Under the pieces are notes generated by a model. The model ran no database searches. It saw only the letters and a program-made list of their open reading frames with translations, and was not told the DNA's origin. 12,230 bases of DNA, taken from positions 1 to 12,230 of the forward strand of contig JAGAPI010000085.1 in NCBI GenBank assembly GCA_017623335.1, read 5' to 3'. The translations under genes and the position numbers were made by a program. This DNA is from Prevotella sp. (GTDB lineage Bacteria; Bacteroidota; Bacteroidia; Bacteroidales; Bacteroidaceae). Shown one piece after another: positions 1,130 through 12,230 of the stretch; positions within the stretch are counted from its first letter, which is position 1, and each line of letters opens with the position of its first letter.

Positions 1130-2335
1130 TCAATAGCAGAATCCGAACAGCCACCGTGGTATGCGGTTGCCATATCCCACCTCCGTGTCATCCACAGCAA
1201 GGAAGCTGCTGGGTACGTCAGCAATCTGCTCAAATGACTTCTTTTTGCCTCCAACCTCAAACAAATAATGGTTGTCGATAAGAAAATCGCCTTTGTCGGG
1301 TGTCTTGACATCATGGGAAACACTAAACTGATTGTAGAAAAATGTCTCACGTTCGTTCCCCTTGTTCACAATAGTACAGAGCGCATGCATAAGATTAGGG
1401 TTACCAAGAAATATTTTGTCGGGCTTATAAAGAAATTTATAATTCTTTGCCTTAGAGGTGAGAAGTGAGAGAATCTGAGCTTTGTCGAGAGCATAGAGCA
1501 TGCGGAGCCCCAGCTCATTGCTGGTTGACAGCTGTCGCCAAAGTTCCGACATTTTAGGCTCAAAAGGCACGTTCTCACTTATTATCATCACAAGTTTCTT
1601 GATTTTCTGAATTGTCTCAAATGACACTTTTTCCACAGCAGGCAGGTCGGTGTCGATTACCACAGAGACAGTTTCACGCAGACGTGCGGGAAAATCGTTT
1701 CCTGACTCTTTGTAGAAAGGATAATAGCCATGATGCAGATAGGCTTCTAAATAGGGGGCTATTCTTATTGACTTCGTTATCTGCATGGCATGTTCGACAT
1801 GATGCTGTAATAAATCATCAAGCGTAATCGTGTCTATATGAATGATGCCCTCAAAAGCTAAAAACTCACGAAATGACATGCCATAAAGCGTATAAGAAGT
1901 CTGACGGCGTGAGAGGTCGGTCTTCGCACTGTCAAGAATCAGCAGGGAACTGCTGGTATAGACAATACTCATATCGGGATAATTGTCATATATGTTCTTT
2001 ATTGTCTCCGACCATAGCTCATAGCGGTGAACCTCGTCAAGGTAGAGACGACGGATACCGTGCTGGTCTGCCCAATCCACCAACTCAATCAGCGAGTGCG
2101 TGGTGAACCACAGGTCATCAAGTGAGACATAAAGCGTTTGGTCAATATTCTTGTGATTTTCGAGGATATGTTGTAATAGCATGGTTGTTTTACCCACGCC
2201 ACGTGCTCCTTTTATGCTGATAATTCGGGCATCCCAATTAATTTGGCTGTAAAGATAGCGTTTGAAACGCAAGTCTACTTTGGTTATTTTGCGGTGATAA
2301 TTGTTGAAAAGAGGTTGTAATTCTATAGTTTCCAT
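1130..2335 (-). CDS. AAA ATPase with AAA_14 core and DUF4143 C-terminal region
   Basis: This is a 401-residue cytoplasmic P-loop ATPase. Walker A is GARGVGKT (43-50), Walker B is LYLDEVH (97-103), the sensor-like strand is IVYTSSSLLIL (124-134), and a DLSRR arginine motif follows (140-144). This order matches the AAA_14 family. The C-terminal half (from about 205) matches DUF4143, with a restriction-nuclease-like segment KGDFLIDNHYLFEVGGKKK (348-366). The end, GNRIPRWLFGF, is typical, so the gene looks complete despite a second open frame overlapping its 3' end. A canonical promoter lies 20 bases upstream and an AAGGAAAT ribosome-binding sequence precedes the ATG. Such ATPases are abundant and multicopy in Bacteroidales, and their function is not established. 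It is divergent from susC and likely not part of that operon. Confidence 0.9.
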   Translation of the reverse strand: METIELQPLFNNYHRKITKVDLRFKRYLYSQINWDARIISIKGARGVGKTTMLLQHILENHKNIDQTLYVSLDDLWFTTHSLIELVDWADQHGIRRLYLDEVHRYELWSETIKNIYDNYPDMSIVYTSSSLLILDSAKTDLSRRQTSYTLYGMSFREFLAFEGIIHIDTITLDDLLQHHVEHAMQITKSIRIAPYLEAYLHHGYYPFYKESGNDFPARLRETVSVVIDTDLPAVEKVSFETIQKIKKLVMIISENVPFEPKMSELWRQLSTSNELGLRMLYALDKAQILSLLTSKAKNYKFLYKPDKIFLGNPNLMHALCTIVNKGNERETFFYNQFSVSHDVKTPDKGDFLIDNHYLFEVGGKKKSFEQIADVPSSFLAVDDTEVGYGNRIPRWLFGFCY

Positions 2336-2355: not shown

Positions 2356-2387
2356 CAAAGTTAATGGTTTATATTTGGAACTGCAAA
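2356..2387 (-). promoter_or_regulatory. Promoter of the AAA ATPase gene
   Basis: On the minus strand, TTTG (2387-2384), a 20-base spacer, and TAACTTTG (2363-2356) make an exact Bacteroidota promoter. The expected start of transcription is near 2349, giving a leader of about 14 bases that includes a run of nine A (2350-2342) and an AAGGAAAT ribosome-binding sequence just before the ATG at 2335. The -33 element is itself part of the first of four upstream repeats, so a repeat-binding protein would compete with RNA polymerase. Confidence 0.75.
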
Positions 2388-2529: not shown

Positions 2530-2548
2530 GGAAATGTCTATTATGCAT

Positions 2549-2566
2549 ACCTCGTAAGGCGAGGTG
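2549..2566 (+). repeat. Left arm of the inverted repeat flanking the promoter segment
   Basis: ACCTCGTAAGGCGAGGTG matches the reverse complement of 2756-2773 at 17 of 18 bases. It stands out as GC-rich in very AT-rich surroundings. The arm is also self-complementary (ACCTCG, loop TAAGG, CGAGGT) and is followed by GGCGTTTTT, so on the plus strand it could act as a small terminator. Together with the right arm it bounds a 189-bp segment with the layout of an invertible promoter. Confidence 0.8.
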
Positions 2567-2598
2567 GCGTTTTTACTATCAAAAATTTATTTCGGATG

Positions 2599-2630
2599 CA
2601 AAAGTAGTGAAAAATAATTAATATCACAAA
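2599..2630 (-). promoter_or_regulatory. Promoter between the inverted repeats, facing away from susC
   Basis: On the minus strand, TTTG (2630-2627), a 20-base spacer and TACTTTTG (2606-2599) form a full match to the Bacteroidota consensus. Transcription would start near 2592 and run leftward out of the repeat-bounded segment. Inverting the segment would move the -7 box to about 2716-2723 on the plus strand, facing susC with a leader of about 160 bases. In the present orientation no comparable promoter faces susC. An alternative is that this is a distal promoter of the ATPase gene, although that gene has a strong proximal promoter. Confidence 0.75.
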
Positions 2631-2755
2631 ATATTTTGCTAAAAATTTAAATAATACGCTAAAAAATAACGATTTGTTATCTTTTGGCGCATAATTTATT
2701 TATCTTTATGCAAAAAACGCTCTTTTTATAACAATTTTATTTCAAAAGAAATGCG

Positions 2756-2773
2756 CACCTCGCCTTACAAGGT
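2756..2773 (-). repeat. Right arm of the inverted repeat flanking the promoter segment
   Basis: On the minus strand this reads ACCTTGTAAGGCGAGGTG, matching the left arm except at one base. The single difference (T for C) weakens the arm's own hairpin to a shorter stem. It lies 117 bases before the susC start codon. Confidence 0.8.
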
Positions 2774-2890
2774 GACATAAATAAAAAAGAAATGAAGCAA
2801 AAGGAAATAAAAACAATATAAAATAAAACATACAGGATAATGATAATCCCGTAACATTTATAAAATTAACAACTAATTAAAAAAGTATTT
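2774..2890 (+). promoter_or_regulatory. AT-rich susC leader without a promoter of its own
   Basis: This stretch between the right repeat arm and the susC ATG has no TTTG and no TAnnTTTG match, so no recognisable promoter. There is no Shine-Dalgarno sequence; the A-rich run before the ATG is what Bacteroidota start regions normally show. No small gene or stable RNA structure is apparent. It presumably serves as the 5' untranslated leader of the transport operon. Confidence 0.5.
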
Positions 2891-5800
2891 ATGGAAAAAA
2901 GACTTTTGACTTTGTTGGTCAGCTTGTTCCTATATATTGGGACGGCATTGGCCCAAACTCAAGTTTCCGGTACGGTAACCTCTTCCGAAGACGGCTCACC
3001 CATTGTTGGTGCGTCGATAAAGATTGTAGGTACAAATACAGGTACTGTGACAGATGTGAACGGAAAGTACTCGCTTACGCTTCCGGCAGGCAAGAGTGCA
3101 GTGAGAGTTTCCTATGTTGGTATGATGGGAAAGACAGTAACTGTAAAAGGTGGAAAGACAAACATCATTCTTGACCCTGATCAGACAAATCTGGACGAGG
3201 TTGTGGTGACTGCTATGGGTATCACCCGCAGTGAGAAAACCCTCGGCTATTCTGCCACGACAGTGAAGAATGATGAAATAGTAGGCGCACGCACAACCAA
3301 TGTTGCCGATGCCCTTTCGGGTAAGGTCGCAGGTGTGCAGGTGAGTACTACGAGCAGCGACCCGGGAGCTGTGAGCAATGTTGTAATCCGTGGTTACGGT
3401 TCAATCAACGGCAGCAATCAGCCTCTGTATGTTGTTGACGGCGTGCCGTTGCAAAACAACATGGTGTCTGATTATGATCAGGGCAACAATATCTCAGCTG
3501 GCGGTATCTCGAACATCGCACCTGAGGATATTGAGAGCATGACTATTCTGAAAGGTGCAGCAGCTACAGCCCTTTATGGAAGCCGTGCCGCCAACGGTGT
3601 GATTCTCATCACCACCAAGACAGGTAAGAGGGGTGTTGCACGCAATTACACTATAAACTATAGTGGAAGTGTTCAGGCACGCATGGTGTCAATGCTTCCT
3701 GATTTGCAGAACAAATACGGTCAGGGTTGGGGCGGACGCCAGACATTCATAGAGAACGGTTCATGGGGACCGGCAATGGATGGCTCGCTGCAGGTGTATG
3801 GTCCTGCATGGAACAACCAGCAGCTCATTCACGAGTATTCGGCAGTGAAAGACAATATAAAGGATTTCTTTGAGACGGGTTGGTCGCAGAATCACAATGT
3901 TTCTCTTAGCGGTGTGTCAAATGACAACAAGATGACATACTATCTGTCATATTCATATACCGATGATAATGGTATCATGCCATATGATAAGGATGTATAT
4001 AGCCGCAACACTTTGGCAATGCGCAACAGCTATCAGGCTAACGAATGGCTGAAACTGTCGTCTTCATTCAACTTTGCACGCAGTGCCACCGACGCAGTGG
4101 GACAGTTTCAGGGAACATCTGTGATTGACGGTCTATATGAAAGCTCACGCGATGTGTCGCTTGTAGACAAGAAAGACCTGAGCAGCGCGTTCAATACTCC
4201 TGAGGCTTATTATACACCATACGGTATCACCAACCCGTATTGGGCTATAGAAAACAACTATAACCACACTGATGCCAAGCAGATTAACGGTAAGATTCAG
4301 GCTGATATCACTCCAATAAAGGACTTGACGCTTACATACCGTTTTGGCTTCGACTATTCTGACTATGACAGCAAAATCGGTGTTCCGCAGATTGCCCTTG
4401 ACGACAAGCTGATAACCAATGACTATGGTTACGGCCCAAAAAACATGAACCAAAGTGGATATGTGCGCAACCGTTATCGCCGTATGCATGAATTCAACCA
4501 TGACTTCATGGCAAACTATAAGAATAAGTTTATCGATGACCGTCTCGACCTGAGTGCAACAGTGGGTGTGAACATGAATGAACGTGCCATGACTTCCATG
4601 ACCGGACAGACAACCGACCTGACTTTCAATACAGGCTTCTGGGACCTGAGCAACGGTTCCACCAAGACAACACTCTCTGAGTTGCAGTCGAAGCGCCGTC
4701 TTGTAGGTTTGTTTGGCGACATTACCATTGGTTGGGACGATATGCTCTATCTCGGTCTTACAGCCCGTAACGACTGGTCGTCAACACTGCCTTTGGAGAA
4801 GAACAACTTCTTCTATCCCGGTGCTACACTGAGCTGGATATTCACAAAAGTGATTCCGGAGAATGACATACTGAGTTTCGGTAAGGTACGTTTTGCGTAT
4901 GGCAAGACCGGTAACGATGCCGGCGTTTATCTCACGGGATCTACCTACAGCCAAACAAGCATCAGCGGATATTATGGCAATGGTATTGCCAAGTTCCCAA
5001 TGAATGGCGTGAACTCATTCCTGCTGGGCAACACCAAGGGCAGCAACTCGCTGAAGCCTGAAATGACAACAGAGTTTGAGGTCGGTCTTAACCTGCAGTT
5101 CTTCAAGGGGCGTATCGGCATTGACGCCGCTTTCTACAACAGAACCACCGACGACCAGATATTCACATTGCCAGTTGACCCTGCAACGGGATATTATTAT
5201 CAGGTGACCAATTTCGGTTCGGTTCGCAACCGCGGTATTGAGCTGCTCGTCACCACTGTACCTGTACAGACAAGAGACTTCAAGTGGGAGTTGAGCTTCA
5301 ACTTCTCAAAGAACTGGAACAAGGTGCTTGAGATGCCCGAAAGCCTTGAGGGCGGCCGTGTGTCAATATATGATTTCTCGGCAGGAAACGATGCAGTGTA
5401 TATGTATGCAGAGGAAGGCAAGCCTATGGGCGAGTTCTACACCTATCTGCCACAGTACACCGACGACGGCAAGATGATAGTTGATGCTAACGGGCAGCCT
5501 GTAATCGGCACTCAGGTGGAGGATACGGGCAAGAACATGAACAGTGACTGGACCGGTGGTGTGACCACAGCCTTCACCTATAAGAACTTCACACTGAGCG
5601 CAGCTCTCGACATACGTAAGGGTGGATATATGTTCTCACGCACAAAGAATCTTATGCAGTTCACCGGTAACGGCACCATTACAACATACAACGACCGCCG
5701 TCCGTTCATTATCCCCAATTCGGTGGTGAACACCGGTACCGATGCCAACCCTGTGTATGTAGACAACACAACACCAATTTATCTGACAGACAATTCATAT

Positions 5801-6121
5801 CAGAACTATTTCAACAACTATGGTTATGGCAACGGCGGCGAGGCCTATCTGCTTGACCGCTCGTTTGTGAAGCTGCGCAACATCAGCCTCACATGGAACC
5901 TGCCGCAGAAATGGGTTAATGCAATGAGTTTGAGCAATGTTGCCCTGACAGCTTTCTGCAACAACGTGTTCACATGGACTGCAAGCGACAACTATTTCAT
6001 CGATCCTGAGGCTACAACGGTGAGCCAGGGTTCATACGGTGACCTTGCAACACAGTTCGGAGAGATGTACACCAATCCGTCGTGCAGAATTTTCGGCTGT
6101 AACCTGAGTGTGACTTTCTAA
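2891..6121 (+). CDS. SusC/RagA-family TonB-dependent outer-membrane transporter
   Basis: This 1076-residue protein imports oligomers across the outer membrane using TonB-derived energy, closed on top by its SusD partner. Visible parts are a signal peptide (1-21, cleaved after ALA), a carboxypeptidase-regulatory-like Ig domain (about 23-97, from QVSGTVTSSEDG), a TonB box LDEVVVTAMG (101-110), a plug domain (about 115-245) with the SusC signature SMTILKGAAATALYGSRAAN (216-235), then a long beta-barrel ending in the aromatic C-terminus NLSVTF. Length is normal for the family (about 1000-1100). It is the first gene of a four-gene operon; susD follows after 33 bases. Expression may depend on the invertible segment upstream and on the convergent HTCS. 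Cargo cannot be told from sequence; the SusD type and neighbours resemble the B. thetaiotaomicron BT2264 system, suggesting oligopeptides or an unusual oligosaccharide (inference). Confidence 0.97.
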   Translation: MEKRLLTLLVSLFLYIGTALAQTQVSGTVTSSEDGSPIVGASIKIVGTNTGTVTDVNGKYSLTLPAGKSAVRVSYVGMMGKTVTVKGGKTNIILDPDQTNLDEVVVTAMGITRSEKTLGYSATTVKNDEIVGARTTNVADALSGKVAGVQVSTTSSDPGAVSNVVIRGYGSINGSNQPLYVVDGVPLQNNMVSDYDQGNNISAGGISNIAPEDIESMTILKGAAATALYGSRAANGVILITTKTGKRGVARNYTINYSGSVQARMVSMLPDLQNKYGQGWGGRQTFIENGSWGPAMDGSLQVYGPAWNNQQLIHEYSAVKDNIKDFFETGWSQNHNVSLSGVSNDNKMTYYLSYSYTDDNGIMPYDKDVYSRNTLAMRNSYQANEWLKLSSSFNFARSATDAVGQFQGTSVIDGLYESSRDVSLVDKKDLSSAFNTPEAYYTPYGITNPYWAIENNYNHTDAKQINGKIQADITPIKDLTLTYRFGFDYSDYDSKIGVPQIALDDKLITNDYGYGPKNMNQSGYVRNRYRRMHEFNHDFMANYKNKFIDDRLDLSATVGVNMNERAMTSMTGQTTDLTFNTGFWDLSNGSTKTTLSELQSKRRLVGLFGDITIGWDDMLYLGLTARNDWSSTLPLEKNNFFYPGATLSWIFTKVIPENDILSFGKVRFAYGKTGNDAGVYLTGSTYSQTSISGYYGNGIAKFPMNGVNSFLLGNTKGSNSLKPEMTTEFEVGLNLQFFKGRIGIDAAFYNRTTDDQIFTLPVDPATGYYYQVTNFGSVRNRGIELLVTTVPVQTRDFKWELSFNFSKNWNKVLEMPESLEGGRVSIYDFSAGNDAVYMYAEEGKPMGEFYTYLPQYTDDGKMIVDANGQPVIGTQVEDTGKNMNSDWTGGVTTAFTYKNFTLSAALDIRKGGYMFSRTKNLMQFTGNGTITTYNDRRPFIIPNSVVNTGTDANPVYVDNTTPIYLTDNSYQNYFNNYGYGNGGEAYLLDRSFVKLRNISLTWNLPQKWVNAMSLSNVALTAFCNNVFTWTASDNYFIDPEATTVSQGSYGDLATQFGEMYTNPSCRIFGCNLSVTF

Positions 6122-6154: not shown

Positions 6155-7672
6155 ATGAGAAAATATATATTGATGACAGTTCTCGCCTGCGGTCTGGGAC
6201 TGACTTCATGCGACAGTTACTTGGACATAAACCAAGACCCCAACTCTCCGGCTGAAGGAAATATCACATCATCGATGATCATGCCCGGAGTGGAGATGGC
6301 GATATCGAGCGCATACGGCAACTACCTTAGGATAACAGGCGGTTTTCATTCAGAGGTGTATGCACATCTTAACGGAACTTCAAACTACTTGGACTATTCG
6401 CAGTTCACACAGTCAGCCACACGCTCAAACCGTATGTACACTCAGCTATATGAGCAGGCATTGGTGAATTTGAATACCGTCTTGGCAAAATCGGAAGCTT
6501 CGGAGGACTGGGGCACATATCTTGCTGCAACCACCCTGCGTGCATTCTGCTATGAGACACTGGTGGACTGCTATGGAGAGACACCTTATACAGAGGCTCT
6601 TGATGCCAACAACCTGTCACCGAAATATGACGACGGCAAGACTGTGTATGAGGCTGTGATTGCAGAGCTTGATGCTGCTTTGGAGAAGGCTGCGCCAAGC
6701 AACGCTGTCTGCACAAACTTCCTGTTTCCCGGTGAGAATGCAGGCAAGTGGATACAGTTTGCCAATGCCCTTAAACTTAAGATGCTCATGCGTATGGCAA
6801 ATGTCGACGCTTCGGTGCTGGCTAAGGTGCAGCCCCTGGTTGAGCAGAACAATTTTCCGACAAATGATATTGCCTTTGCTGACTGCTGGAGTAATGAGGC
6901 AGGGGCTATGAACCCGTTCTATTCAGAGGAATTCTCAAGCTCATGGGGCTCAACACAGACTAATATCTGCGCCAATCTTGCCATCATTGGTACAATGCAG
7001 GTGAAAAACGCTTCGGGTGAGGTGGAATATACTGACCCTCGTATCAGTGCATTCTTCGAGAAAAACTCGGAGGGCAAGTATGTAGGCAGTATCTCCGGCA
7101 CCAACTATCCAAGCACAACAAGCCTCACGGCATGGTGCCGTCCTGTGATGGCATTCAACACTTCTGTGTCGCTGCTCACTGTGGCTGAGGTAAATTTCTT
7201 TATCTCTGAGTATTATGCCCGTTCGGGCAATGAGGCTCAGGCAAGGGCTTACTATAATGCTGCCATTGAGTCCTCGTTCAATTCTGCGGGTGTTGACGGT
7301 GCAGCCGAGCATATTGCACGCTATCCGTTTGATATGACAAACTATAAGAGGAGCATCGGTGTGCAGAAATGGGTTGCACTTTCGGGTGTCAATACCTTTG
7401 AGGCATGGTGTGAGCTGCGCCGCCTTGACTATCCTGCCTTCGACACCACGGTGAAGGGTGAGACATTCTTTACTGAGGGCGATGCCAGCACATTCACCAA
7501 CAACGGCTACAAGGAGGGTACGCTCTATACCCCCATCAAAGTGTTCGGACTTGTGGGAGCCAATAGGGTGCTGGAGCGTTTTCCGTATTCTGAGGTGTCA
7601 TCGGCACGTAACTCCAACACTCCGGCATTTGGCAATAGCGACTATACCAAGCCTGTGTTCTGGGGCGAGTAA
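6155..7672 (+). CDS. SusD-family surface lipoprotein (SusD_2 type)
   Basis: This 505-residue lipoprotein is the lid and ligand-binding partner of the preceding SusC transporter. A lipoprotein signal ends in the lipobox LTSC, making Cys19 the lipidated residue. The mature start CDSYLDINQDPNSP is the hallmark opening of the SusD_2/RagB group. Helical repeat-like segments follow (for example the stretch with ANALKLKMLMRMANVD at about 207-222), and the C-terminal region carries GVQKWVALSGVNTFEAWCEL and PIKVFGLVGANRVLERFPYS, both typical. Length is normal for the family (450-600). The start codon follows susC by 33 bases with no terminator between. Ligand identity is unknown. Confidence 0.95.
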   Translation: MRKYILMTVLACGLGLTSCDSYLDINQDPNSPAEGNITSSMIMPGVEMAISSAYGNYLRITGGFHSEVYAHLNGTSNYLDYSQFTQSATRSNRMYTQLYEQALVNLNTVLAKSEASEDWGTYLAATTLRAFCYETLVDCYGETPYTEALDANNLSPKYDDGKTVYEAVIAELDAALEKAAPSNAVCTNFLFPGENAGKWIQFANALKLKMLMRMANVDASVLAKVQPLVEQNNFPTNDIAFADCWSNEAGAMNPFYSEEFSSSWGSTQTNICANLAIIGTMQVKNASGEVEYTDPRISAFFEKNSEGKYVGSISGTNYPSTTSLTAWCRPVMAFNTSVSLLTVAEVNFFISEYYARSGNEAQARAYYNAAIESSFNSAGVDGAAEHIARYPFDMTNYKRSIGVQKWVALSGVNTFEAWCELRRLDYPAFDTTVKGETFFTEGDASTFTNNGYKEGTLYTPIKVFGLVGANRVLERFPYSEVSSARNSNTPAFGNSDYTKPVFWGE

Positions 7673-7692: not shown

Positions 7693-8397
7693 ATGAATCG
7701 TAATATGAAGAAAAATATAATTTATCTGATGTTTGTGGCATTGTTTGCCATAACACTCACAAGTTGCGACGACAGTTCTGAGGGCTTGACGCGTATCACA
7801 TATTATCCTGTACTTACACTCAACGGCGATGAAGTGATGCATGCCGACAAAGGCTCTACGTTTACCGATCCCGGCTGCAGTGCAGAGCTCAATGGAGAGG
7901 ATGTGTCAGCAGATGTTAAGGTGTCGGGAACAGTGAATACGGCAAAGTCCGGTGTGTATACTCTTACTTATTCTGTGGCAAATGCCGACGGTTTCAGTGC
8001 CTCGGCACTGAGAACTGTGATTGTCACCGATCCCAACGATGCCCATGAAGGTGTGTTTTATGTGTCTACTGCCGACAGCTATCGTGTGGCTTCTGCCACA
8101 GCACCATATAAGGGAGCGTTCGAGATTGTTATAACCAGCAACGATGACGGCACATATCATGTTGACGACTTGCTGGGTGGCTGGTACAGCCAGGGGGCAG
8201 GCTACGGTACGGCATATGCCATGGACGGTAAAATAGCTATCGGTGATGATGAGAGAATCACACTTGTTGACTGTTTCCTGACAGGATGGGGTGACAGCCT
8301 TGATAGTCTTGACGGAAAGTTTGATGTGGCAACTGGCACATACAATTGGACTGCCGAATATGCTGGAATGACCTTTGTTGTTGTATTGACAAAATAA
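7693..8397 (+). CDS. Surface lipoprotein with Ig-like (DUF5011) and BT_2262-like domains
   Basis: This 234-residue lipoprotein has the lipobox LTSC with Cys25 lipidated. The Asp/Ser-rich residues after it (CDDSSEG) resemble the Bacteroidota signal for export to the cell surface. The N-terminal half (about residues 38-112) looks like a DUF5011 Ig-like domain: STFTDPGCSAELNGEDVS, then GTVNTAKSGVYTLTYSVAN, ending in VIVTDP. The C-terminal half (about 118-234) is beta-rich with YKGAFEIVITSNDDGTYHVD and GTYNWTAEYAGM, resembling the BT_2262-like domain. The second Met (residue 5, base 7705) is the more typical lipoprotein start, MKKNIIYL. It begins 20 bases after susD and is part of the same operon. 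It likely sits on the SusCD complex as an accessory substrate-handling subunit (inference from BT2262). Confidence 0.85.
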   Translation: MNRNMKKNIIYLMFVALFAITLTSCDDSSEGLTRITYYPVLTLNGDEVMHADKGSTFTDPGCSAELNGEDVSADVKVSGTVNTAKSGVYTLTYSVANADGFSASALRTVIVTDPNDAHEGVFYVSTADSYRVASATAPYKGAFEIVITSNDDGTYHVDDLLGGWYSQGAGYGTAYAMDGKIAIGDDERITLVDCFLTGWGDSLDSLDGKFDVATGTYNWTAEYAGMTFVVVLTK

Positions 8398-8412: not shown

Positions 8413-8949
8413 ATGAAGAAATATATATATATGTGTGTGGCACTTGCCGGAATGTTGTTTGTGTCATGCGAGAAAGACGAGATAGGCGGCACTGCCACAG
8501 AGGCTTTGGCTGGTGAGTGGTATGTGACCGTGGACGCAGTCGATGCCAACGGTGAGACTGTTTTGGAAGACCCCTTTGGAATTGGACATGTCCTGATGAA
8601 CACCTATAACACAGTTGACAATGTAAGTACAAAGATGTGGGTGGATGACAAGGGCTCATTCTGGAACTTTAAGGTGATCACCGCCTCAGATGTTAACAAC
8701 CTTACATTTACCACAAATGGTGAGGTGGTGAACAGCGCACTCAATGATGACGGTTCTGTGTATGACTGCAAGGTGAATATCTCCGATGGCAAGATGTTGC
8801 CTGGAGCCGCTACTAATCCTCATGGCACAAAGTCTGACAGCATTGTGTTCTACGTGGCATTCGATGATGACACCTATCCCGCTGAGTATGGATATGCCAA
8901 GTACAAGGTGTCGGGTTACCGTTACACCGGTCTGGCTTCTGATGACTGA
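8413..8949 (+). CDS. Small surface lipoprotein, lipid-binding putative hydrolase-like
   Basis: This 178-residue lipoprotein has a signal ending in FVSC, with Cys19 lipidated. It is followed by CEKDE, a strong match to the acidic surface-export signal. The mature part is compact and beta-rich: LAGEWYVTVDAVDANGETV (about 32-50), a central MNTYNTVDNVSTKMWVDDKG, and the end YAKYKVSGYRYTG. This resembles the Lipid_bd / lipid-binding putative hydrolase family, which in B. thetaiotaomicron includes BT2261. No catalytic motif is visible, and the family name is structural rather than demonstrated activity. It is the last gene of the operon, starting 15 bases after its neighbour and ending just before a terminator. 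An (AT)6 tract at 8421-8432 lies in the signal-peptide codons. Confidence 0.75.
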   Translation: MKKYIYMCVALAGMLFVSCEKDEIGGTATEALAGEWYVTVDAVDANGETVLEDPFGIGHVLMNTYNTVDNVSTKMWVDDKGSFWNFKVITASDVNNLTFTTNGEVVNSALNDDGSVYDCKVNISDGKMLPGAATNPHGTKSDSIVFYVAFDDDTYPAEYGYAKYKVSGYRYTGLASDD

Positions 8950-9056: not shown

Positions 9057-12000
9057 TTATTTATCTTTCATGTAGTCTCTTGGCGTTTGTCCATACATTT
9101 TCTTAAACATGGTGGAGAACGATGTAGTGTTGCTGAATCCGCATTTATACACTATTTCCGTGATATTATGGTTGCCCTCTTCCAGCAGCTTTGCTGCCTG
9201 CTGCATACGTATGTTGCGTATAAAGTCGTGCGGAGTCTGATTGGTAAGCTCCTTCATCTTGCGGTGCAGGTGTACGCGGCTCAGTCCCACACTTTGCGCT
9301 ATCATGTCCACGCTCAGGTCGCTGTTGCTTATGTTACTGTTTATCACATCCATTATTTTTACCATCAGTTTCTGGTCGGGCGTTGTTATTTCCAGCTTCT
9401 CCACCTTGTCGCTTTGGCTTTCCTCACCCGAGAATTTCTTCTCCATCACGCGTCGGCTGTTAATCTTGTTTATTATGGTGCGCTTCAGTATGTCCATGTT
9501 GAAAGGCTTGGTGATGTAGGCATCGGCTCCGGTCTCCAGTCCTTCCAGCACATCATTGTCCATAGCCTTTGCCGTGAGCATTATCACTGGAATGTGGTTG
9601 GTGCGTATATTCGACTTTATCTTAGTACACAGCTCGTTGCCGTCCATGCGTGGCATCATTACGTCGGTGACCACCAGTGCCGGCAGTTCTTTCTGAATCA
9701 CGGGCAGTGCCTCGGCACCATCTGCACAAGTCAGCACCCTGAACGTACTGCTGAGAGTTTGTGCAATGTATTGCCTTATCTCGTCGTCATCTTCAGCTAT
9801 CACTATTGTCTGCAGCTTTGGCTTTGCTTGTTTTTTGGGTGCTTTCCCTGTATCTTCCGCATTTATTGTATTATTTGCATCCCCCGTATTTTCTACATTT
9901 TCAGTGTCTTCAGTCTGTTCTGCATTCTCCTCCGGCACCTCAGGTGATGTACCGGTTGCGTTTTCGTCAGTGCTGGTTATATCGTTTCCCGCATGTGCCT
10001 CCGCAGTGCTGCTTTCCTGTTTTTGTACTTTTTCCATTATCTCTTCTTTTGTCAGGTGGGCATAACCCAATGGCAGTTCGATAACGAACTTGCAGCCTCC
10101 AGGCACGTTCTCAGCATGAATGGTACCGTGTTGCAGTTCGGTAAGCGAGCGTGCAAGGTCGAGTCCCACGCCCGTACCGGGCTTGGTGTTGCTGCCCTTT
10201 GCCTGATAGAACCGCATGAAAATCTTTTCCAGCTGGTCTTCCGGTATCTGCTGTCCGTCGTTGCTTACATAAATCCGCATGTTCTTGCTGTCGTGTTCCA
10301 GTCCAATCACCACGTTTTTGCCGTTTGGAGTATATTTCATTGCGTTCGACAGGAGGTTCATCATAACCTTGTCCAGTGCGGTGCGGTCAACCCAAGCCGA
10401 CAGCTTGTCTATTCCGTCGTGCATGAATGAGAGGTTGATGCCCTTGTTGCGTGCCGTGTAGGCAAACAGTGAGCAAATTTCGTTAATGAATCCCACCATG
10501 TCGGTTTCCTGCATCTGCATTTTCATCTGTCCCTTGTCTATTTTCCTCATGTCCATGATCTGGTTCACGATGTGGAGTATTCGCTCGGCATTGCGCTTGA
10601 TGGTGGCGTAGATGGCGTTGCGGTGAGGGTCGGTGTCCTCAGCCATGAGGTCTCCCAATGGCGATGTGATGAGCGTCATAGGTGTGCGTATCTCGTGGCT
10701 CAGGTCAATGAAGAAGCGCAGCTTGGCATCGTTCATCTCCTCGGCATGAATGTGTTTCTGCAGGTCGAGCTTATCCTGCTGCCGTGCCTTCATGTTGCGC
10801 CAGAGCCACCAGCATACATATATTATAATAAGGAGATAAATGGTTTTTGCCCACCATGAGAAGTACCACGGTTGGTGTACCACGATTGTTATCTCCTTCA
10901 CCTTCGACTGTGCGCCGTTTAATGTAGCCTGTATCCTTATATTATAGGTGCCCGGTGTGAGATGTGTGAGTGTCAGGCGGTTTGTTCCTTCCGCCAGTGA
11001 GCTCCACTTGCCCGAATCTATACTATAGCGGATCATCGTGCGCTCCTGATTCTTGAAAGTGAGTGTCGACAGGCGCAGGGTCACCGTGTTGTCCTGATGG
11101 CTCAGGTCGAAGCGGCTGCTTTCCGCCACGATGGTGTCGGTTATCACATAGTTTCCCGACTTCATTCTTGCTCTCACTATGGTGCTTCCTATCTCCAGTG
11201 CCGACAGTACCACGTCGAGTTTCTGCTGTCGGGGTGTGATGTCCTCGGGCGTGAATACGGTTATGCCCTGCATGCCTCCGAACAACAGCCGGTTGTCTGA
11301 CAGGCTCAGCGACACGCCGTCGCTGAACTCATTGCTCTGTAGTCCGTCGTTGGCATAGTAGTTTGTCACAGCTCCTGTGGATGGCTCCAGACAGCACAGT
11401 CCCTTCTTGGTGCTTATCCACAGCTTGCCGGTTTTGTCCTCCTGTATGTCGGCAATCGAGCTTGATGGCAGTCCCTGTGCCGTGGTGTAGCTTGTAATCT
11501 TCCCTTTTCTTTCAATCATGAATAGTGAGTCGTTGCCTCCCACCCACAGTCGTCCTTTCCTGTCCTCTTTTATTCCCGTCACGTTGTTGTTTTCGAGCAT
11601 AAGGTTTGTCCCGAACGTCTTTGTCCAGCTTCCCGACGGGATGTCGAGTGCCGCCAGTCCCATGGATGTGCCGATGTACAGTGTCTTGCCGTTGCGTGAC
11701 AGCCGCATCTGCATGATATAGTCGTTAGGCAGACATTGTTTCGTGCCGCCGCGGCTTTTGTAGCTCACGGTCTTGCCCGTGGCAATGTCATACATCTTCA
11801 GTCCGTCGCCCAGAGTTCCTATCCACAGGTGTCCTTTCTTGTCGGCAATGATTTCAAACACACCGGTAGCCTTGCCGTAACTCCATGGCAGACGGTGATA
11901 TTCGCCAGTTTCGGTGTCCACCCATCCGCAGCCCTTTGTGTAGGAGCCAATCCATAGCCGCTTGTTCTCGTCTTCGGCTATGCACAGCACAGCCGAGGGA

Positions 12001-12230
12001 ATGGAGTTGCTTTTGCCTTGTGGCGCAAAGTGTTTTTCCTGTCTGTATCCGCCGTCAGTGTTTAGGGCATACAGTCCGCCGCCGTCGGTGCCCACCCACA
12101 GTGTGCCGTCGGCTGTTTGGTGTACTGCCATCACACATTCGTCGCCGATGAGGTTTTGCTGTGGCATCTTCTTTCCAATGTAGCCGAACCGTGACTTGTG
12201 GTTCATCTGTACAAACAGTCCTTTCTGAAA
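9057..12230 (-). CDS. Hybrid two-component system regulator (HTCS), N-terminus beyond the window
   Basis: The frame is open to the window edge, so the protein is partial: 1049 residues from the internal Met at 12206, plus 8 more codons upstream. In order (numbered from that Met), it shows Reg_prop sensor-propeller repeats (about 24-320; LWVGTDGGGL, LWIGSYTKG, LWIGTLGDGL, LYIGTSMGL, LWISTKKGL), a Y_Y_Y domain (about 380-447), a membrane helix (about 452-470), a histidine-kinase domain with DLSHEIRTP (His504), N-box NLLSNAMKYTP (617-627) and GTGVGL, then an acidic linker (about 718-798). A receiver follows (acidic E805-D807, phospho-acceptor Asp848, Lys900), then an AraC-type DNA-binding domain (about 955-1049). 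Every key catalytic residue in the visible part is present. HTCS proteins sense periplasmic ligands and activate nearby SusCD operons, so control of the convergent operon is likely. Confidence 0.97.
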   Translation of the reverse strand, partial: FQKGLFVQMNHKSRFGYIGKKMPQQNLIGDECVMAVHQTADGTLWVGTDGGGLYALNTDGGYRQEKHFAPQGKSNSIPSAVLCIAEDENKRLWIGSYTKGCGWVDTETGEYHRLPWSYGKATGVFEIIADKKGHLWIGTLGDGLKMYDIATGKTVSYKSRGGTKQCLPNDYIMQMRLSRNGKTLYIGTSMGLAALDIPSGSWTKTFGTNLMLENNNVTGIKEDRKGRLWVGGNDSLFMIERKGKITSYTTAQGLPSSSIADIQEDKTGKLWISTKKGLCCLEPSTGAVTNYYANDGLQSNEFSDGVSLSLSDNRLLFGGMQGITVFTPEDITPRQQKLDVVLSALEIGSTIVRARMKSGNYVITDTIVAESSRFDLSHQDNTVTLRLSTLTFKNQERTMIRYSIDSGKWSSLAEGTNRLTLTHLTPGTYNIRIQATLNGAQSKVKEITIVVHQPWYFSWWAKTIYLLIIIYVCWWLWRNMKARQQDKLDLQKHIHAEEMNDAKLRFFIDLSHEIRTPMTLITSPLGDLMAEDTDPHRNAIYATIKRNAERILHIVNQIMDMRKIDKGQMKMQMQETDMVGFINEICSLFAYTARNKGINLSFMHDGIDKLSAWVDRTALDKVMMNLLSNAMKYTPNGKNVVIGLEHDSKNMRIYVSNDGQQIPEDQLEKIFMRFYQAKGSNTKPGTGVGLDLARSLTELQHGTIHAENVPGGCKFVIELPLGYAHLTKEEIMEKVQKQESSTAEAHAGNDITSTDENATGTSPEVPEENAEQTEDTENVENTGDANNTINAEDTGKAPKKQAKPKLQTIVIAEDDDEIRQYIAQTLSSTFRVLTCADGAEALPVIQKELPALVVTDVMMPRMDGNELCTKIKSNIRTNHIPVIMLTAKAMDNDVLEGLETGADAYITKPFNMDILKRTIINKINSRRVMEKKFSGEESQSDKVEKLEITTPDQKLMVKIMDVINSNISNSDLSVDMIAQSVGLSRVHLHRKMKELTNQTPHDFIRNIRMQQAAKLLEEGNHNITEIVYKCGFSNTTSFSTMFKKMYGQTPRDYMKDK

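Follow-up and report, generated by a model that had tools for sequence, protein, structure and literature searches.

In Bacteroidales, inverton promoters have been described as having a −33 TTTG box and a −7 box of the form TANNTTTGY (PMC8748976), and invertons are often found near genes for the cell surface (PMC11892184). Among the inverton groups reported in the latter study, group 131 is enriched for nearby TonB-dependent receptor and SusD genes, 68 of its 72 members stemming from Bacteroidota. With respect to individual systems, the Tsr0667 recombinase is reported to act at three SusC/SusD clusters and at nine other regions (PMC4747536), and for BT2264/BT2263 a promoter inversion brought about by BT2267, an invertase homologue, has been put forward as one possible explanation of expression data (PMC6080902). 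For the BF2766/Tsr19 promoters of B. fragilis, a larger number of repeats between promoter and gene reportedly goes along with lower transcription (PMC4747536).

The window analysed here, a stretch of 12,230 nucleotides of Prevotella sp. DNA, contains upstream of a susC gene a segment of 225 bp (2549–2773, without strand) that we consider to be probably an invertible promoter of the inverton type. The left arm of its inverted repeat (2549–2566, plus strand) reads ACCTCGTAAGGCGAGGTG, and the right arm (2756–2773) reads ACCTTGTAAGGCGAGGTG on the minus strand and matches the inverted left arm at 17 of 18 bases. Each arm consists of two six-base half-sites (ACCTCG or ACCTTG, and CGAGGT) flanking the asymmetric five-base core TAAGG, i.e., both form a 6-5-6 dyad, which is perfect in the left arm (ACCTCG / CGAGGT) and has one mismatch in the right, and the core, too, is conserved between the arms in inverted orientation. 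The first-pass annotation had described this repeat as G + C-rich arms enclosing 189 bp of AT-rich DNA, and a recount gave the same positions, match and interior length, with a G + C content of 61% in the arms as opposed to 22% in the interior. At 18 nt the arms lie within the range of 10 to 40 nt given for inverton repeats in PMC11892184. No third copy of the arm was found in the window at up to three mismatches.

The 17/18 inverted repeat is far beyond chance. Counting as equal in quality all repeats matching at 17 or more of 18 positions and lying 20 to 500 bp apart, 400 dinucleotide shuffles of the window yielded a mean of 0.0025 such repeats each, and 4,000 shuffles of the intergenic region 2336–2890 (555 bp) a mean of 0.00625; in the latter set, no repeat had arms with nine or more G + C. 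Since shuffled sequences constitute a weak null, real Bacteroidales DNA was used as a second control, comprising 1,373,543 bases from records of Segatella hominis, Prevotella sp. oral taxon 299, Parabacteroides distasonis and Bacteroides finegoldii. It contained 12 repeat pairs with at least 17/18 matches at a spacing of 100 to 400 bp, ten of them on the S. hominis plasmid, where they form two groups of five with some of the arms shared. None of the 12 enclosed a perfect promoter, and in none did the G + C fraction of the arms exceed 0.45, compared to 0.61 for the arms in the window. Enclosure by looser repeats was dropped as a line of evidence, because at a match of 15/16 only 2 of 114 control promoters were enclosed (in P. 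distasonis L008 and in Prevotella sp. 299, one each), a share no higher than that among randomly chosen AT-rich positions (22 of 600). For B. thetaiotaomicron, 1,997 repeats have been predicted, 569 of them with potential promoters, lax cases thus being common (PMC10994844).

Inside the segment, a perfect Bacteroidota promoter, TTTG-N20-TACTTTTG, is found on the minus strand (2599–2630) as an exact match to the consensus, and it is at present directed away from susC. By comparison, 263 of 20,000 shuffles of the segment interior contained a perfect promoter on either strand. Inverting 2549–2773 in silico brings the end of the −7 box to 167–168 bp before the susC ATG (2891), the promoter then facing susC. 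On both points, the complete minus-strand promoter at 2630–2599 and its relocation by a flip to about 170 bp upstream of susC, the first-pass annotation thus proved accurate. In addition, 2570–2626 (minus strand) aligns with a region of a S. hominis plasmid at 47/57 identity (4 gap positions), and this region lies directly upstream of, and in the same direction as, an annotated quinol monooxygenase gene. Because this counterpart is gene-proximal and co-directional with its gene, 2570–2626 looks like a promoter with its leader. A search with the segment and its flanks yielded one match in plasmid records and none in phage records, and the promoter-plus-leader pattern was matched in none of the viral contigs.

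The view that the segment is seen in its OFF orientation had been argued from the lack of a canonical plus-strand promoter in front of susC. In the present orientation, a TTTG-N19..21-TAnnTTTG sequence facing susC is indeed absent within 350 bp of its ATG, and TTTG-N18-TATATTTG at 2348–2377 faces the gene from further off at a spacing that departs from the usual one. However, a perfect promoter within 350 bp upstream is likewise absent from 18 of 19 control susC-like ORFs. As the start of each of these was set at the first ATG in its open frame, some of the upstream stretches begin too far out (in one ORF this start deviates from the annotated one). Therefore, the missing forward promoter is a weak argument for the OFF state, carries little weight and was dropped as proof of it.

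The presumed switched gene, susC (2891–6121, plus strand), codes for a TonB-linked outer-membrane transporter and is followed on the same strand by genes for a susD-like lipoprotein (6155–7672), a further lipoprotein (7693–8397) and a Lipid_bd-family protein (8413–8949). The best matches among solved structures are BT_2264, BT_2263 and BT_2262 for the first three, while the fourth matches 3h3i (a putative lipid binding protein) and BT_2261 with near-equal scores, that of 3h3i being slightly higher. By this comparison with the Protein Data Bank, the four proteins correspond to BT2264–BT2261 of B. thetaiotaomicron with their order kept. As the operon is thus of the BT2264 type, for which a promoter inversion has already been proposed in print, a promoter switch at this locus is in keeping with an existing suspicion. 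With respect to the assignment of the segment to the class of invertible promoters, the anatomy and the BT2264-type target are therefore in its favour, whereas the argument from orientation adds little.

Named relatives of the SusC protein at 73–75% identity are labelled Bacteroides, Parabacteroides or Bacteroidaceae, and those of the hybrid two-component regulator encoded further downstream, at 45–49%, are labelled Prevotella or Prevotellaceae. The cluster to which the SusC protein belongs comprises 28 member sequences and 6 contigs, and further relatives share 78–81% identity with it. The SusC search gave no confirmed viral locus; 112 plasmid records contained a SusC relative, the best place in each being less than 60% identical, and the BT_2262-type protein matched one record, from Pseudoalteromonas, with partial coverage. 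The regulator gene itself (9057–12230, minus strand), which includes an AraC-type domain and is open at the window end, is convergent with the operon and its product is a possible second layer of control. On the other side of the segment, the first gene met by the segment promoter in the present orientation codes for an AAA_14-type ATPase (1130–2335, minus strand), and a perfect promoter outside the segment (2356–2387, minus strand) lies just upstream of it. The region upstream of the ATPase gene also harbours four direct repeats of 24 nt (2365–2485) with a spacing of 33, 32 and 32 nt, i.e., about three helical turns apart, which are possible operator sites.

Compared to the invertons of the Bacteroidales as detected by PhaseFinder, the segment shares the short inverted repeats around a −33 TTTG / −7 TAnnTTTG promoter and the property that this promoter would face the downstream gene, here susC, in one of the two orientations. 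It differs in that it is known in one orientation and in that its arms are unfamiliar. With the simple promoter inversions at BF2766/Tsr19 the locus has in common the layout, and the reported effect of repeats on transcription would fit arms that act on transcription, although those promoters are linked to exopolysaccharide and vesicle formation. The inversions of the Tsr0667 and BT2267 type in B. fragilis and B. thetaiotaomicron are similar with respect to the SusC/SusD target family, but the arms do not follow the Tsr0667 consensus, which we take to be AGTYYYN4GDACT, and no such recombinase was found in the window. Against this presumed consensus the left arm scores 7 and the right arm 6 of 11 fixed positions, which is background, since 2,839 of 3,000 random 36-mers score 6 to 8. 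In the window as a whole, the same consensus has one exact match, far from the segment (316–330), and three matches with at most one mismatch, as against 2.73 expected.

The first-pass annotation had likewise not recognised the arm sequence, and by title no earlier description of the arm strings turned up among the matches listed in a literature string search. The exact arm was found in none of the viral contigs and in three genome contigs, labelled Alphaproteobacteria, Elusimicrobiales and Burkholderiales, respectively; these three are presumably chance matches. As none of the three is labelled Bacteroidota, either the lineage is absent from the collection or the arms are not shared. In the window no Rfam family reached its gathering score. 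A recombinase family, which had been said to be missing from the window, was not detected in 18 of the 44 listed window ORFs, among them every ORF of at least 145 aa, and the segment thus differs from the resistance-gene switches described in PMC8748976, all of which adjoin an invertase gene.

A possible parallel is provided by P. distasonis (NZ_OY725751.1, L008:995-1440), where a perfect promoter, 177 bp upstream of a susC related at 34% identity, is situated inside a repeat matching at 16/17 positions. Of the 19 control ORFs, this one alone has a perfect promoter within 350 bp, and it alone is preceded within 560 bp by a repeat matching at 16/17 or better. In contrast to the segment in the window, the arms are different ones with 412 bp between them and the promoter already faces susC, and the P. 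distasonis locus, a single case, is itself a candidate. Its arms score 9 and 10 against the presumed Tsr0667 consensus, a score of 9 or more being reached by 160 of 3,000 random 36-mers, and no other copy of the region was found in another plasmid record. A connection between the two sets of arms via a TACGA-like core was considered and dropped, this string being too short to be meaningful.

Taken together, an invertible promoter accounts for the anatomy better than the alternatives considered, and the segment, which is seen in one orientation, is likely a switch of a familiar type whose ends have an unfamiliar sequence. Both dyad arms would be recognised by a site-specific recombinase, most likely of the tyrosine type, whose gene would lie elsewhere, and the asymmetric cores, lying in opposite orientation, would direct inversion. 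In the present orientation the promoter would read from the susC side toward the ATPase gene; after inversion it would read out through one of the arms into the susC-susD-BT2262-BT2261-type operon, and the importer operon might in this way be switched between ON and OFF expression. What speaks against this reading is that no recombinase was detected in the 18 ORFs scanned, that the exact arm is found in no contig labelled Bacteroidota, that the arms score at background level against the presumed Tsr0667 consensus, that lax repeats with promoters are common, and that only one orientation is seen. However, a single orientation is not in itself counter-evidence, because for 1011 of the 1837 invertons counted in PMC11892184 the minor orientation was below 0.01. 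If the segment does invert, it would add an independent example, from arms of a different sequence, to the idea that BT2264-type SusCD importers are switched by DNA inversion, and would point to a further recombinase.

Both arms can in addition be folded in silico into terminator-like hairpins that point into the segment, one from the left arm with a T-run (2548–2576, plus strand) and the other from the right arm with a T-rich tail (2746–2774, minus strand), whereas no T-run follows the hairpin when the arms are read outward. These two are among the three terminator-like sites in 651 bp, compared to a mean of 0.4 in shuffled sequence, such calls being consensus matches in AT-rich DNA. Since T-rich tracts follow the hairpins in the inward direction only, the arms may, within the proposed switch, also act as a one-way insulator of the promoter that blocks read-through from outside. 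The inward hairpins thus suggest how an inverton might be shielded from adjacent loci. A more far-reaching version, which we regard as doubtful, assumes that the arms represent a type of recombination site which, as far as the titles listed in the string search go, is previously undescribed, that each arm would combine a recombinase dyad with a hairpin stopping the entry but not the exit of transcription, and that the switch would select either the BT2264-type importer operon or the AAA_14 ATPase gene, read-through being low in both states. Such an alternation is conceivable, as on the strand concerned no terminator-like site is listed in the stretch from the promoter to the ATPase gene. The ATPase gene also possesses its own perfect promoter (2387–2356).

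An alternative hypothesis assumes that the segment is a MITE-like, transposon-derived element with 18-bp terminal inverted repeats, which was inserted between the genes, contains the promoter incidentally and keeps its orientation at the site. In such an element, a short AT-rich interior bordered by two nearly identical inverted ends would be seen, and a conserved inverted core is expected of transposon ends as well as of recombination sites. However, a convincing target-site duplication was not detected in the flanks, where 49 combinations of shifts gave at best the 4-bp direct repeat CATA, at unequal shifts of 1 and 2 bases, and neither an extra copy of the arm in the window nor a Bacteroidota-labelled contig with the exact arm was found, which makes this explanation unlikely. 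More improbable still is an arrangement without any recombination, in which two inward hairpins serve as terminators or insulators on either side of a promoter that is fixed and drives the ATPase gene or a leftward RNA. It would be in line with the inward terminator-like arms and their excess over shuffled sequence, each comprising a G + C-rich hairpin and a T-run (by consensus match only), and with a promoter that is directed at the ATPase gene, no terminator-like site being listed in between on that strand. Yet, on the strand required, neither arm is immediately preceded by the end of a family-matched gene, the only listed plus-strand ORF there (2301–2621) crossing the left arm and matching no Pfam family; the ATPase gene is already provided with its own promoter; and there is no need for independent terminators to agree at 17 of 18 positions, loop included, just as a conserved inverted core is not required of terminators or operators. 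The least probable of the explanations, and a very unlikely one, is that the arms are palindromic operators on either side of the susC control region, to which a dimeric regulator such as the nearby hybrid two-component protein binds, since in spite of the 6-5-6 dyad in each arm (with one mismatch in the right) and of a hybrid regulator with an AraC-type domain in the window, a dimer would need the half-sites only, whereas the asymmetric core is kept inverted between the arms.

Inverted repeats of other kinds were encountered both in the control records and in the window. On the S. hominis plasmid NZ_CP137560.1, inverted repeats whose arms are related to each other form two shufflon-like clusters (L012:10319-12194 and L025:15450-16412, at about 50.3–52.2 kb and 315.4–316.4 kb, respectively), and in Prevotella sp. 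oral taxon 299 an intergenic repeat (L064:3991-4225) has 22-bp arms around 191 bp with no perfect promoter inside. In the window, a perfect 15-bp inverted repeat (783–797 / 888–902) lies just after an antitoxin-like gene, each of its arms containing a TATCTTTG box that is directed inward. Finally, an inverted repeat of 30 nt with 77% identity (144–173 / 1045–1074), with promoter-like TACCTTTGC boxes in both arms, encloses a Gp49/RelE-ParE-type toxin-like gene together with an HTH antitoxin-like gene.
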